From NCBI GenBank assembly GCA_009777935.1, contig WRKU01000012.1, positions 1 to 46,083 on the forward strand: a stretch of DNA of 46,083 nt. The letters run 5' to 3'. Positions 27,807 to 45,878 of the stretch are shown one piece after another (position 1 is the stretch's first letter; each line of letters opens with the position of its first letter). A program made the position numbers and the translations under genes. This stretch comes from Coriobacteriia bacterium. GTDB taxonomy: Bacteria > Actinomycetota > Coriobacteriia > WRKU01. The notes under the pieces were generated by a model. That model saw only the letters and a list, made by a program, of their open reading frames with translations. It was not told the origin of the DNA and did no database searches.

Positions 27807-27813
27807 AGTGACT

Positions 27814-29511
27814 ATGATAAAGCCAACCAACAAACTTGTCGAGGTAGCCACCGGACGCACACCAGCCGACGTCGTGTTTAGCAACGCACAGTACCTCAAT
27901 GTATTTACGCGCCAATTTGAAACGGGCGACCTCGCCATCGTCGACGGCTACATCGCCGGTATCGGTGAGCCCGGTGACTATCGCGGCGCACGAGAGATTG
28001 ACTGCCGCGGTCAGGCCATCGTTCCCGGCTTCATCGATGCGCACATCCACCTCGAATCGACACAGGCTCCCATCGTCGAGACGACGCGGGTCATGGCTGC
28101 ACACGGCACGACCGCACTCATCGCCGACCCACACGAAATGGCGAACGTACTGGATCTTGAGAGCGTCGCGTATCTGCTCAGCGTCATCGAAGACGCGGCC
28201 GTCACCTGCTTTTTAATGGCCCCGTCGTGCGTGCCGTCGTGTCCGTTCGACGAGACCGGCGCCGTGCTGGACTCCCATGAAGTCGCCGAACTGCTGAGCC
28301 ACAAGCGCGTCATCGGCCTGGCCGAAGTCATGAACTATCCGGGCGTCATCGGCGGGGACGTCGAGGTTCACCAAAAGATACAGAACGCACAGAAGCTCGG
28401 TAAGGTAATCGATGGGCATGCACCGTGTCTGAGCGGCCTCGATCTTAACGCCTACGTTGCGGCGGGACCTACGACCGACCACGAATCGACGACCTACGCC
28501 GAAGCGTACGAGAAGCTGCGGCGCGGCCAGTACGTCCTGATTCGTGAGGGCACCGCCGGACGCAACCTCGCCGCACTCCAGGGGCTTCTGACGCCGCAGC
28601 TCTCCGACCGCTGCCTGTTTTGCTCCGACGACATCGCGGCGAGTGACCTTCTGGCGCGCGGTCACCTCGATTATCTCATTCGTCGCTGCATCGAGCTGGG
28701 TACCGCGCCGGAGATCGCCTACGCGGTCGCCTCGTTCAACGCCGCAAAGACCTATCGCTTGGCCGACTACGGAGCCCTTGCGCCGGGATATCGCGCTGAC
28801 CTCGTGCTGCTTAACGACATCGAGACTGTCGATATCGCGGCCGTGTGGCACGCCGGTGTCGAGCTGGCCGAGACGGAGAGCGCGACCAAAATACCACCAC
28901 GAGAAGACGACTTCCCCGCCGTCTTCCACTCTGTTCATATGGCCCCGTTTAGCGTGCAAGATATCGCAACCGACGACACGCCGCGACCGCTCATCGGCAT
29001 TGTCGGCGGTGAAATCATCACCGAGAACAAGGGCACGGCGACGGGTATCGATGTCGAACGCGATATCCTCAAGCTCTGCGTCGTCGAGCGTCACAAAGCA
29101 ACGGGCCACATCGGCATCGCGTACGCGACCGGCTATGGGCTCAAACGAGGAGCCATCGCAACGAGCGTGGCCCACGATGCACACAATATTATTGCAATTG
29201 GCACCAATGATGCCGACCTTGCCGCCGCCATCGAACGCGTACGCGACCTGCAGGGTGGACACGTACTCGTCGAGCACGGACAGGTCATCGCAGAGCTACC
29301 GCTGCCCATCGCCGGCCTCATCAGCGATGTACCCATCGAGGAAGTGGCACGACTCCATCATGAACTCGACACGGCCGCACACGAATGTGGCGTCCTACCC
29401 AACGTATCGCCGCTGATGACGCTTTCGTTCCTTGCACTACCGGTGATACCGCACCTCAAGTTGACGACGCTCGGCGTCGTTGATGTCGATACCTTTAGTC
29501 TGATGAACTAA
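27814..29511 (+). CDS. ade: Adenine deaminase
   Basis: Deaminates adenine to hypoxanthine in purine salvage. 565 residues from ATG 27814; a GTG six bases upstream is in frame but would lie at or before the transcript start. The amidohydrolase barrel has the metal motif DAHIHLEST, PHEMANVLD, the GHAPCLSGLDLNAYVAAG block and CSDDIAASDLL with the catalytic Asp. The C-terminal domain typical of Ade (GIAYATGYGLKRGAIATSVAHDAHNII) is complete. It is the only large plus-strand gene in the window and stands alone between a divergent hydrolase and a convergent exported-protein gene. Confidence 0.96.
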   Translation: MIKPTNKLVEVATGRTPADVVFSNAQYLNVFTRQFETGDLAIVDGYIAGIGEPGDYRGAREIDCRGQAIVPGFIDAHIHLESTQAPIVETTRVMAAHGTTALIADPHEMANVLDLESVAYLLSVIEDAAVTCFLMAPSCVPSCPFDETGAVLDSHEVAELLSHKRVIGLAEVMNYPGVIGGDVEVHQKIQNAQKLGKVIDGHAPCLSGLDLNAYVAAGPTTDHESTTYAEAYEKLRRGQYVLIREGTAGRNLAALQGLLTPQLSDRCLFCSDDIAASDLLARGHLDYLIRRCIELGTAPEIAYAVASFNAAKTYRLADYGALAPGYRADLVLLNDIETVDIAAVWHAGVELAETESATKIPPREDDFPAVFHSVHMAPFSVQDIATDDTPRPLIGIVGGEIITENKGTATGIDVERDILKLCVVERHKATGHIGIAYATGYGLKRGAIATSVAHDAHNIIAIGTNDADLAAAIERVRDLQGGHVLVEHGQVIAELPLPIAGLISDVPIEEVARLHHELDTAAHECGVLPNVSPLMTLSFLALPVIPHLKLTTLGVVDVDTFSLMN

Positions 29512-29567
29512 GCAAGGCATTCAAAGGCCGTCCCCCTGCACGAGAGACGACCTTCGAGTGCCTTGCT
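29511..29567. terminator. Long bidirectional hairpin between ade and the exported-protein gene
   Basis: AGCAAGGCA (29511-29519) pairs perfectly with TGCCTTGCT (29559-29567), and pairing continues inward with two mismatches to a 22-position stem and a ~13-nt loop. It starts at the last base of the ade stop and ends 6 nt before the stop of the convergent gene. No T-run follows on either strand, so it would be a U-less terminator or a 3'-end stabiliser serving both genes. Confidence 0.65.
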
Positions 29568-29573
29568 CTAACT

Positions 29574-30518
29574 CTACTGGCTGGTGTCGAGGTCTCTGAC
29601 GACCTCCCAGCCATTGGGGCCTGCCTTACTCATTACCAGATCGGGCTGGTTGGTGGGATGGGTAAGATGTGGGCGCGCAGGATCCCATACCCCCACATCG
29701 TCGAGCGAGAGGACTTCCATCTTAAGATCGATAGCGTAGTAGAAGGCCCGACTACGCAACCGCTCGCTACCAAAGGTAACGCCGTTCATGAGCAGCGCGG
29801 TGTCGTTGGTCGGGGCAACCTCTGAAGAGTAGTAGAAGTAGCCGTCTTCGCACAGCACCCAGGTATCGGCGGGACGCGTATTAGGACCGGGCGCGTCCCA
29901 CTGAGCAAAGGTCATGACGCTCACACTCAGATCGGTACGTGTCGGGCCGGCCTGTCCATTTATCTGGCCCCAACTCCAGTACATGCCAAACAGGTCAGGA
30001 GGGGTAGCCGCAGGCCATACGGTACCGTGAGCGGTCCACGAGGTATCAGGTATGACAAACCAGGGGTTTGCCGTATCGGTGTCGATGAAAGAACCCCAAT
30101 TGCCTTCCGCAAACGTTGACTCCATCTCATCCATCGCATCTTGATTGCCTTCATTGAGCGGCGCAAACGGAATCGGAACACGAGAATCTTCTACACTCGT
30201 CAGATGCTCATTGAGCATGTTTCGACCCTCCATGCCATCTGCCGCATCGAGCCACTGCATGAACTCTCTGGCTTGAATACGCGCGATAAAGGGCACGTTA
30301 CCCGTGTTTTCGACCCAGACCTCTTTGTTCCAGGTATCTTCGTCTTCGCGTGAAAAGAAGTCATGGAGCTGGGCTTCGGGAGCCGCAGCGTTCGCAAATT
30401 GATTGATTGCGGTCTGGATGGCGCCCCACGCAAAGGCACCCAAAAGAAGGAGGAGTAAGGCGACAATTATGGCAATGGCAGTGTTAGTGCGCTTGTGAGA
30501 GCGACATGTCTCTGGCAT
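29574..30518 (-). CDS. Exported protein resembling SipW-dependent TasA/camelysin-like proteins
   Basis: 314 residues from the ATG at 30518 (GAGGG 5 nt upstream). A Lys/Arg head is followed by one hydrophobic segment (14-33) that could be a signal or an anchor. After it come LHDFFSREDEDTW and VWVENTGNVPFIARIQ (67-82), the pattern of matrix and camelysin-like proteins exported with SipW-type signal peptidases. The second family-like part is WVLCEDGYFYYSSEVAP (220-236). The middle is Trp/Asn/Asp-rich with no other domain seen. No SipW peptidase, sortase or pilus gene is nearby. It is an orphan transcription unit downstream of rel. Family assignment is by pattern only and moderately sure. Confidence 0.55.
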   Translation of the reverse strand: MPETCRSHKRTNTAIAIIVALLLLLLGAFAWGAIQTAINQFANAAAPEAQLHDFFSREDEDTWNKEVWVENTGNVPFIARIQAREFMQWLDAADGMEGRNMLNEHLTSVEDSRVPIPFAPLNEGNQDAMDEMESTFAEGNWGSFIDTDTANPWFVIPDTSWTAHGTVWPAATPPDLFGMYWSWGQINGQAGPTRTDLSVSVMTFAQWDAPGPNTRPADTWVLCEDGYFYYSSEVAPTNDTALLMNGVTFGSERLRSRAFYYAIDLKMEVLSLDDVGVWDPARPHLTHPTNQPDLVMSKAGPNGWEVVRDLDTSQ

Positions 30519-30571: not shown

Positions 30572-30592
30572 ATCTGCACGTGCTGTGCAGAT
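30572..30592. repeat. 8-bp perfect inverted repeat upstream of the exported-protein gene
   Basis: ATCTGCAC (30572-30579) and GTGCAGAT (30585-30592) are separated by 5 nt. The repeat lies in the 163-nt gap after rel and ~55 nt before the start codon at 30518. A CATAAT -10-like hexamer on the minus strand stands just upstream of it at 30602-30607, so it could be an operator in the leader or near the start of transcription. No T-run follows, which argues against a terminator of rel. The rest of the gap is AT-rich and without a gene. Confidence 0.5.
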
Positions 30593-30681: not shown

Positions 30682-32484
30682 TTAGCGAGGCTCTGTTGCG
30701 TTCGGAGTGTCCTTTGACATGACGCGGCGAACCTCAAAGACACCGGGCACCCGGCGCAAGTCATCAAATAAGGCCTCAAGGCGCGTCAGATCGCCCATCT
30801 CAAAGAGAAAGCGCATGTCAACGACGCCGTCGGGGTGTGCGTACGACGACGACTCGATGATGTCGACTGACGCGCCGGCAACCTGCATCGTGACGTCTTG
30901 CAAGAGGCGCAAACGGTCGGTCGCACGCACAGCAATCTCAGCGCGCGGGGCCAGCCCCTTTTGACGCTTGCGCTTCTTCGCCGGCTTCGGCGCCGGGACG
31001 AACGGGGCGCTTTCGTCGGTCGTACCGGCCTCACCGAGAAGACGGCTCTCTTTGCGCGCTTCGCGGGCGAGAAACGAACGTATCTTCGAGCGCGCCGAGC
31101 TCGTCACCACGATGTCGAGCCACTCGCGTGTCGGCGCCGCGCTCTGTTGGGTCAGCACTTCGATACGGTCGCCGTTTTGTAGCTCGTAGGTGCGCGGTAC
31201 GATCTCACCGTTAACCTTTGCACCTACATAGTGGATGCCAATCTCGGTATGAATATGGAAGGCAAAGTCGAGCGGTGTTGAGCCACGCTTTAATGATTTG
31301 ACCTCGCCTTTCGGGGTAAAGACAAAAACCTCTTCCTGAAAGAGATCGATCTTTAGCTCCTCCATGAATTCGCTGGGATCTTCGAGCTCGGTCTGCCATT
31401 CGAGCATCTGGCGTAGCCACGAAAGTCGTTCGTCAAAGTCATCATCGTGACCTTTATAGCGCCAGTGCGCTGCCACACCATATTCGGCCGTTCGGTGCAT
31501 CTCATGAGTGCGAATCTGCACCTCAAGAGGATTTCCTGCCGGCCCAATGACGGTCGTGTGCAACGACTGGTACATGTTGAACTTTGGCATCGCCACGTAG
31601 TCCTTAAAACGTCCGGGAATCGGCGTATAGAGACTGTGCACGAGGCCGAGCACGCTGTAGACATCGGGGATTGTATCGACGACGATACGCAGGCCGAGCA
31701 GGTCGTATATCTCGCTAAAGTCCTTACCCTTGGCAATCATCTTTTGATAGATAGAGTAGAGGTGCTTCGGGCGCCCCTGAATCTCGGCCGTGATATCGTG
31801 CTCGTCGAGCACCGCCTGAATCTCGGCCATGACCTGCATGGCGTATTCATCGCGTTGCGCGCGAGACTGGTGCACCATCTGCGCTACCATCGAGTATTTG
31901 ACCGGGTCAAGATAGCGAAACGCAAGATCCTCAAGTTCCCACTTAATCTGCGAGATGCCGAGGCGATGCGCAAGCGGTGCAAAGATCTCCATCGTCTCGC
32001 GCGATTTTTCTATCTGCTTGTCTTGAGGCAACGCCGAGAGCGTGCGCATGTTGTGGAGGCGATCGGCAAGCTTGATAAGAATCACGCGAATATCACGCGC
32101 CATTGCGATAATCATCTTGCGCATCGATTCGGACTGTTGCTCGGTATAGGTATCAAACTCGATCTTGCGCAGCTTCGTAATGCCGTCGACGAGCAGGGCA
32201 ACCTCGGCACCGAACCGGCGCTGTACGTCGGCAAGCTCGATACCGGGACAGTCTTCTACGGTGTCGTGGAGAAGCGCCGCCTCTATCGTGCGGAAGTCGA
32301 GACGCAGGTCGGCGAGTATCGTCGCAACCTCAAGCGGGTGCGTGATGAACTCATCGCCCGACTCGCGCAGCTGACCTTCGTGTGCGAGAAGCGAAAACTC
32401 GTAGGCCTCGACGACCGAGGCAATCTCGTCGGCGTCGTGGTTCTCGGCAAGGCGAGCAGCGAGTGCTTCGATCGTTACGCTCAT
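30682..32484 (-). CDS. RelA/SpoT-family (p)ppGpp synthetase/hydrolase, shortened C-terminus
   Basis: Makes and degrades the alarmone (p)ppGpp. 600 residues against the usual 730-790. The HD hydrolase domain is intact (His49, HDTVED 73-78, Asp141-Arg142). The synthetase domain has GRPKHLYSIYQKM (237-249), YDLLGLRI and RFKDYVAMPKFN (292-303) with the RxKD form of bifunctional enzymes; the next motif reads NMYQSLHT where the family has NGYQSLHT. A TGS domain (about 385-447) and a C-terminal ACT domain (about 512-590) are present. Only ~65 residues lie between them, ending in a Lys/Arg linker, so most of the helical and all of the zinc-finger/RIS region is missing. The ATG overlaps the recJ-recQ stop in an ATGA. 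Confidence 0.95.
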   Translation of the reverse strand: MSVTIEALAARLAENHDADEIASVVEAYEFSLLAHEGQLRESGDEFITHPLEVATILADLRLDFRTIEAALLHDTVEDCPGIELADVQRRFGAEVALLVDGITKLRKIEFDTYTEQQSESMRKMIIAMARDIRVILIKLADRLHNMRTLSALPQDKQIEKSRETMEIFAPLAHRLGISQIKWELEDLAFRYLDPVKYSMVAQMVHQSRAQRDEYAMQVMAEIQAVLDEHDITAEIQGRPKHLYSIYQKMIAKGKDFSEIYDLLGLRIVVDTIPDVYSVLGLVHSLYTPIPGRFKDYVAMPKFNMYQSLHTTVIGPAGNPLEVQIRTHEMHRTAEYGVAAHWRYKGHDDDFDERLSWLRQMLEWQTELEDPSEFMEELKIDLFQEEVFVFTPKGEVKSLKRGSTPLDFAFHIHTEIGIHYVGAKVNGEIVPRTYELQNGDRIEVLTQQSAAPTREWLDIVVTSSARSKIRSFLAREARKESRLLGEAGTTDESAPFVPAPKPAKKRKRQKGLAPRAEIAVRATDRLRLLQDVTMQVAGASVDIIESSSYAHPDGVVDMRFLFEMGDLTRLEALFDDLRRVPGVFEVRRVMSKDTPNATEPR

Positions 32485-45295: not shown

Positions 45296-45703
45296 TTATG
45301 CTGCGCCCAACTTATCTCTCAACGCCTCTTGTAGTGTTGAAGAGTAGCTAATGTGCACCGCGTCGGCCTCCGCTGCGAGCCAGCTAGGAATAGTCACATT
45401 TTTACGTACAGCCTTATTGCTTTGGCGCAATCTATAGTTAGTGAGATTAGCGGATACGAGGGTTACGATATCGCCCTTATTTTGAGCAAGATCAGAAGTA
45501 TCAGATGGTACCGGTAGCGCAATACCCTTATCCTGATACTCGATAGCGAGTATTGAGATCAAGTCCTTAGCCATCTCCAGAGCATCTGCCAAATCATTGC
45601 CCTGTGTGCTTCTGCCAAAGTCAGGTACATCGACAAAATACGGAACCGAGTCGTTTTCGTCTACACTCAGCACTACGGGATAGATTACGCTATCGGCTTT
45701 CAT
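45296..45703 (-). CDS. hicB: HicB-type antitoxin
   Basis: 135 residues. The N-terminal half is the HicB partial RNase H-like fold (YPVVLSVDENDSVPYFVDVPDFGRSTQGNDLADALEMA is spread over residues 8-46, with the Pro-Asp-Phe-x-x-x-x-x-x-Gly pattern). The C-terminus ends in a ribbon-helix-helix-like DNA-binding segment (KNVTIPSWLAAEADAV ... LQEALRDKL). It would neutralise HicA and repress the shared promoter. ATG lies 1 nt after the hicA stop; GGAGG stands ~11 nt upstream inside hicA. Local GC is lower than in the rest of the window, a sign of recent acquisition. Confidence 0.9.
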   Translation of the reverse strand: MKADSVIYPVVLSVDENDSVPYFVDVPDFGRSTQGNDLADALEMAKDLISILAIEYQDKGIALPVPSDTSDLAQNKGDIVTLVSANLTNYRLRQSNKAVRKNVTIPSWLAAEADAVHISYSSTLQEALRDKLGAA

Positions 45704-45704
45704 G

Positions 45705-45878
45705 CTATCTCAGCCTCCATCTCTTAATCATTGTCTTTGCCAACCGCTCGTTGACTTCGCGTCCTCGTGGTATTTGTTCGGAGTCATTTCCCTTTTTCCA
45801 AATGTCATGCTTTCCTCCATGACGGTCAAATACCCAGCCGTTTTGTTTGAATAGCTTTTCTAAGTCGCGCTTTTTCAT
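45705..45878 (-). CDS. hicA: HicA-type mRNA interferase toxin
   Basis: 57 residues from ATG 45878, with AAAGGAA upstream; the longer open frame runs into the poly-C edge and is not coding. The dsRBD-like HicA fold shows in KKRDLEKLFKQNGWVFDRHGGKHDIW, carrying the catalytic His24 after Gly-Gly-Lys, and IPRGREVNERLAKTMIK. HicA cleaves mRNA and tmRNA when free of HicB. Toxin-first order, low GC and an autoregulated-looking promoter are typical of mobile toxin-antitoxin pairs. Confidence 0.9.
   Translation of the reverse strand: MKKRDLEKLFKQNGWVFDRHGGKHDIWKKGNDSEQIPRGREVNERLAKTMIKRWRLR

Follow-up and report, generated by a model that had tools for sequence, protein, structure and literature searches.

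Diversity-generating retroelements (DGRs) and slippage switches are each already known, the latter from Neisseria and Campylobacter, in which surface-protein genes are switched by homopolymer slippage. For most DGRs, 75% or more of the mismatches are described as facing adenine (PMC8144416). Two to seven DGR target genes per isolate are given for Treponema denticola (PMC4891356), and the CLec genes of cyanobacteria are described as dispersed target paralogs (PMC7517822). In gut phages, the variable region (VR) of DGR targets is carried by DUF6273 domains, which are described as resembling C-type lectins (PMC10743442, PMC11792537). Among the matrix proteins that depend on the signal peptidase SipW, processed TasA is described as joining its subunits into fibers by donor-strand exchange (PMC9674648).

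The gene considered here lies on a contig of 46,083 nucleotides (the window, by which we mean that whole stretch) in the draft genome of a Coriobacteriia bacterium (G000; 1,106,534 bases, 21 contigs, 86% complete, 1% contamination). An earlier note on the window had described it as an orphan SipW-type exported protein, possibly a surface fiber subunit. We put at about one in two the probability that the gene encodes a constant subunit of a phase-variable, hypermutated surface-protein system.

The open reading frame runs from an ATG on the minus strand (Table 1), and an alternative GTG start 39 nt upstream could lengthen it. The membrane or signal segment and the two motifs pointed out before, VENTGNVPFIARIQ and later DGYFYYSSEVAP, are all present in the 314-aa frame. 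Across the 24 paralogs described below, F29 and A30 of the signal segment are invariant and L22-L26, G27, and W31 nearly so; N71, G73, R80, and I81 are invariant in the first motif, as are D225, G226, F228, Y229, and Y230 in the second. The operator-like dyad upstream also held up, as a perfect inverted repeat with ATCTGCAC and GTGCAGAT as its arms, 5 nt apart. It is the sole zero-mismatch copy genome-wide, the other matches having two or three mismatches, and its use as a family-wide operator is unsupported for want of a second exact copy in the genome. Downstream of the gene, the 100-nt stretch with the terminator-like hairpin folded at -48.6 kcal/mol.

Table 1. Positions of the features discussed (window coordinates unless a contig [C] or locus [L] is named)
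Feature	Position	Strand	Basis
Short SipW-type surface protein gene, putative constant family member	29574..30518	(-)	ORF of 314 aa (ATG, 30518 to 29574), TIGR04090 match, 23 further paralogs
N-terminal hydrophobic/signal segment, residues 12-36 (LLLLLLGAFAWGA)	30411..30485	(-)	Sequence, helix in model, paralog conservation
VENTGNVPFIARIQ motif, residues 69-82	30273..30314	(-)	Within TIGR04090 match 20-91
DGYFYYSSEVAP motif, residues 225-236	29811..29846	(-)	Sequence and paralog conservation
Perfect 8-5-8 dyad ATCTGCAC-5-GTGCAGAT, operator-like, upstream of window gene	30572..30592	.	Genome-wide motif search
Strong terminator-like hairpin between window gene and convergent adenine-deaminase-like gene	29511..29567	.	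Sequence and fold
rsh-like neighbor gene	30682-32484	(-)	Name from sequence
Adenine-deaminase-like neighbor, convergent	27808-29511	(+)	Name from sequence
Two small adjacent ORFs resembling a HicB/HicA pair	45296-45877	(-)	Name from sequence
C29 run and G-rich low-complexity sequence, extreme contig end	45984-46083
SipW-type signal peptidase	G000:C8:46066-46530		TIGR02228
1122-aa pilin-like protein between SipW and two short family members	L041 6397-9765	(-)	Pfam
Reverse transcriptase ORF	G000:C10:2392-3537	(-)	RVT_1

The neighbors of the gene are, judging by their sequences, presumably rsh and an adenine deaminase. Relatives of the rsh-like gene were found widely, the best named ones belonging to Coriobacteriia or unplaced Actinomycetota (58 to 69% identity). 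In 80 rsh-bearing loci with flanks of up to 4 kb, often less, no ORF of at least 60 codons matched the family at an E value of 1 or below, and conserved synteny of a family gene with rsh was rejected. Elsewhere in the window, two small ORFs resemble a HicB/HicA toxin-antitoxin pair, and the extreme contig end, a C29 run with G-rich low-complexity sequence, is probably an assembly artifact.

A profile search against SipW-dependent families, one of the checks suggested earlier, gave a single NCBIfam match for the window protein, to TIGR04090 (BsaA family SipW-dependent biofilm matrix protein). The match spans residues 20 to 91, behind the N-terminal helix; its E value of 1.9e-7 places the similarity beyond chance, and its score of 31 bits is about half the curated cut-off of 60. 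All 24 family genes matched the same model at an E value of 0.01 or below, with scores of 23.9, 31, and 36.6 bits among the matches listed. In Pfam, including the Camelysin and TasA families, nothing matched the window protein at an E value of 1 or below. A single-sequence AlphaFold2 model, built with the jelly-roll beta-sandwich of the BsaA family in mind, had a mean pLDDT of 36.8; it has a helix at residues 4 to 52, and residues 11 to 40, at block pLDDT values of 76 to 90, are its only confident part. The family profile gave three matches in the PDB (E values of 0.2 to 0.99), of which the best two, to the pilus chaperone CsuC, are unconvincing, and a protein scan of collections of genome contigs and viral contigs, from which the protein's own records may have been excluded, returned no named relatives.

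The genome search for SipW and paralogs altered the picture of an orphan. The genome holds 24 genes with the shared domain, the window gene included (a 25th match row is the second piece of a gene on contig C8, at 40208), and contig C8 encodes a SipW-type peptidase; for these two reasons the window gene is not an orphan. It does stand alone within the 46-kb window, as first described, but genome-wide it is one of 24. The absence of an export partner nearby was correctly observed, TIGR02228 matches occurring on contigs C8 and C16 only and not on the window contig, so the gene shares no operon with SipW. The C8 peptidase scored 78.5 bits against TIGR02228 (cut-off, 51.85) and 61 bits against the narrower SipW model NF046067, under the cut-off of 190; the C16 match fell below the TIGR02228 cut-off. 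The same row on C8 includes two short members of the family (388 and 375 aa) and a 1122-aa pilin-like protein with matches to DUF7601, DUF5979, FctA, SpaA, and Cna_B. The presence of this peptidase near two paralogs, together with the TIGR04090 similarity, supports the description of the window product as a SipW-type exported protein.

Among 59 genomes surveyed, four had a family match, the source genome included. One genome of the same order (G008) had 14 matched stretches, one of the same family (G001) had a single match, and G021 had one at an E value of 9e-4. At three loci of G008 (L066, L072, and L074), ORFs that look SipW-like by our reading of the sequence lie immediately upstream of family genes. 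Three other family genes of that genome (L059, L068, and L070) have tracts of 11 or 12 G behind a shared CGCAAAAATGTA, apparently untranslated and roughly 290 to 325 nt upstream of the start codon.

Within the source genome, 21 of the 24 members continue well past the shared domain, two of them (C1_1127 and C6_675) running off their contigs. The three closest paralogs of the window gene are open frames of 709, 857, and 571 aa with extra C-terminal regions, and the window protein ends where the linker of its nearest paralogs starts. It would thus not be a DGR variable protein, since it stops before the linker; the gene has no poly-G tract upstream, no linker, and no variable domain. In the family tree it clusters with two long members, C1_1127 and C15_2194, as a group of three (support, 97/93), and it matches C1_1127 at 71% over 241 columns. 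The gene appears to be under purifying selection, because dN is 0.24 against a saturated dS of 2.43 in the comparison with C15_2194; dS against C1_1127 was not computable. We read the window gene as a constant subunit because it lacks tract, linker, and variable domain, because its nearest relatives are long, and because of this apparent purifying selection.

The same features could belong to a free-standing fiber or matrix subunit that homopolymerizes like TasA and is unconnected with the long paralogs. The SipW-type N-terminal region, the gene's own dyad and terminator-like hairpin, the missing poly-G tract, and the donor-strand exchange described for SipW-processed TasA (PMC9674648) would all suit such a subunit. 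We nevertheless think it unlikely, since the nearest relatives, C1_1127 foremost, are long, domain-extended members, the common module argues for common assembly, and the main shaft would more plausibly be formed by the two short members encoded near SipW.

The long members carry what the window gene lacks. A linker that looks Ig-like on reading occurs in 15 of the 21, and a C-terminal domain was recognizable by motif in 20, the motif having missed C6_675. Eighteen of the 20 domains were aligned, leaving out C1_1127 (contig end) and C18_15973 (aberrant tail). Pfam DUF6273 matched 11 of these 18 at an E value of 0.1 or below, weakly even at best (2.1e-5); one whole long protein searched against Pfam had no match.

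Codon variation near the end of this domain has the form expected of DGR targets. We compared the VRs of 11 genes, namely, ten of the 24 and one truncated gene with which contig C17 begins; C1_1127, with only 94 nt, was left out, and the VRs of other poly-G genes, which align less well, lie outside the scored set. All 11 aligned gap-free over the region's last 54 codons, of which the first 50 were scored. Five or more residues were seen at 20 of the 50 codons; at these 20 the first two bases vary, whereas a C or T occupies the third position in 206 of 220 cells, a pattern expected from AAC and AAT codons mutated at adenine in the template. A comparison of four genes over 277 codons (C14_4172 was left out for an indel) gave three or more residues at 18 of 54 codons in the VR versus 9 of 223 elsewhere. 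Extra bases by codon position numbered 53, 33, and 177 outside the VR, mostly at the third position, versus 33, 30, and 23 inside it.

A reverse transcriptase (RT) frame on contig C10 matches RVT_1 and is 27% identical over 337 aa to the Brt of BPP-1, with GNQSSQ for the GSLTSQ of the latter. Its best NCBIfam match is a group II intron model (71 of 300 bits, far below cut-off), and the others, to antiviral or retron RTs, are likewise all far below cut-off. A 182-aa ORF overlapping the RT start matches Avd weakly (NF033474; E value of 0.0072, 16.6 bits, cut-off 80) and has no Pfam match. Among RT relatives in IMG/VR, of which the best 80 of 173 were used, 60 had an adenine-biased repeat pair, meaning one in which at least 80% of the mismatches face adenine, versus none of 80 control rsh loci. 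Bias to C or to G was found in 1 of the 80 viral relatives each, T bias equals A bias because both strands are read, and the rsh loci passed for no base. We assign the C10 RT to the DGR group. Of 14 genomes searched from the order, the source genome alone had it.

At the same threshold, no adenine-biased pair was seen in ten stretches of the source genome, the RT stretch among them, or in the window, and the 86%-complete draft yielded no template repeat for the main VR type. Contig C10 opens inside a second VR type; an 83-nt stretch there and the end of C6_675 are 85.5% identical. Contigs C6 and C10 both break in this VR type, at their starts, and may derive from a single gene split by VR diversity in the population.

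The second VR core also occurs between genes, in eleven complete VR-like elements and one partial element. In these, a TGYTACACTAG resembles a promoter and the 3' part is conserved, and their cores vary among themselves; the consensus fold, from an alignment of 11 of the 12 (the partial C7:52804 was omitted), has 90 pairs, 7 of them with compensatory changes. Mismatches to two gene VRs faced adenine in the element in 111 of 279 and 94 of 321 cases, flanks included. Since this is not a clear adenine bias, the elements are unsupported as classical template repeats. Rfam gave no match at the gathering threshold for loci L249 and L015. In L249 (G000:C7:51500-57800), four of the elements, one of them partial, alternate with small ORFs, some resembling toxin-antitoxin genes, and one repeat pair of 226 nt is 100% identical.

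The other feature of the long members is a tract of 10 to 15 G close to the 5' end of the reading frame, present in 17 of the 24 family genes; all tract lengths come from one draft assembly. Thirteen of these genes have the leader ATG within the contig, and in 12 it is out of frame (ORFs of 15 to 17 aa); the one in-frame gene, C18_1441, has 11 G and encodes 774 aa. No in-frame ATG, GTG, or TTG precedes the shared domain in 7 of the 17. Of the rest, five have an in-frame GTG behind the tract and four have an in-frame TTG within the leader, so that reading of some poly-G genes might not depend on switching. For 8 of the 17, the contig breaks off 108 to 216 bases before the shared domain, and additional leaders with 12 G were seen twice, at the end of contig C9 and at the start of C16; the true number of poly-G genes may therefore be higher.

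An account without an active DGR would explain the variability of the long paralogs by recombination or gene conversion with positive selection and the poly-G tracts as assembly noise. It could draw on the missing template repeat for the main VR, on the lack of adenine-biased pairs in the scanned stretches of the genome, on intergenic elements that are not clearly adenine biased against the gene VRs, and on the C29 run with its G-rich flank at the end of the window contig, which shows that homopolymer artifacts may occur. We consider this account improbable, because the variation falls on the first two positions of AAY-type codons and leaves the third base nearly fixed, whereas changes outside the VR are mostly at third positions, and because the RT belongs with those of DGRs. 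Several tracts, moreover, follow a conserved leader well away from contig ends, and the seven genes devoid of an in-frame start before the shared domain speak against noise. More doubtful still is that the window gene is a decaying relic, a long paralog minus its linker and variable domain, as its place in the tree among long relatives might suggest, given its intact 314-aa frame, the strong hairpin soon after its stop, and a divergence from C15_2194 that is mostly synonymous.

The reading that we prefer, a constant subunit within a variable system, can be set out as a model. The window gene would supply a constant, always readable SipW-type surface subunit whose precursor is probably held by the N-terminal helix and then cut by the C8 SipW-type peptidase, and the mature protein would be displayed or polymerized outside the cell. 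The long paralogs would use the same export and assembly module to present a C-terminal, probably lectin-like domain, mostly behind the Ig-like-looking linker. Two switches, both presumably still active, would act on them: slippage in the poly-G tracts, bringing the start codon into frame or taking it out, and mutagenic retrohoming by the DGR, rewriting about 20 codons at the C-terminal end. Beside these variable tips the window protein would most likely be an invariant partner or shaft subunit, and we infer for it the surface fiber role that had first been suspected. More tentatively, we envisage a two-layer system of surface variation in a reduced genome, in which at least 17 SipW-exported fiber or adhesin genes are poly-G switched, with just one or a few being read at any moment, at least 10 lectin-like tips are rewritten by one DGR, and the window gene, SipW, and the two short C8 members build a common shaft.

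By summed lengths, the family genes take up about 4% of the genome. If the model is true, a 1.1-Mb genome devotes that share of its sequence to a surface repertoire with almost no limit, whose members may be displayed singly, and the binding target of the surface (host mucus, partner cells, or phages) is directly testable by expressing single family members.

We know of no family with both a DGR and a slippage switch on the same genes and of no DGR targets built on a SipW-type module. A literature search found no work joining "diversity-generating retroelement" with SipW or with "slipped-strand" and, among the best matches, nothing that links SipW-type proteins to either DGRs or phase variation. 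A review mentions DGR, "phase variation," and "homopolymer" together, works mentioning DGR with "phase-variable" exist under titles mostly on phages, and there are comentions of DGR and "Coriobacteri."

With the SipW-dependent matrix proteins (TasA, camelysin/CalY, and the BsaA family), the window protein shares a hydrophobic N terminus ending in GAFAW, an NQF followed by a VENTGNVPFIARI-type stretch within the TIGR04090 match, and a SipW-type peptidase encoded in the genome. It differs in scoring under the family cut-off, in sharing no operon with SipW, and in having two dozen family copies in 1.1 Mb, 21 of the 24 extended past the shared domain. The poly-G genes resemble the slippage-switched surface genes of Neisseria and Campylobacter in opening the frame with a long G tract and in having most copies out of frame, although here the switching is read from one assembly. 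Like DGR families with several dispersed targets, this genome combines one RT found with many scattered genes that have a C-terminal VR and AAY-type codon variation; unlike them, it sets these on a SipW-type module with poly-G tracts, the template repeat for the main VR was not found, and the likeness concerns the paralogs and not the window gene. The DUF6273 targets of phages, the tentaclins (PMC10743442) and those of Faecalibacterium prophages (PMC11792537), are described as bearing the VR on the same kind of domain, whereas here the match to DUF6273 is weak, the N-terminal module is of the SipW type, and the contigs are chromosomal. The tentaclins are described as having Ig-like domains as well, but with the lectin domain at the N terminus (PMC10743442).
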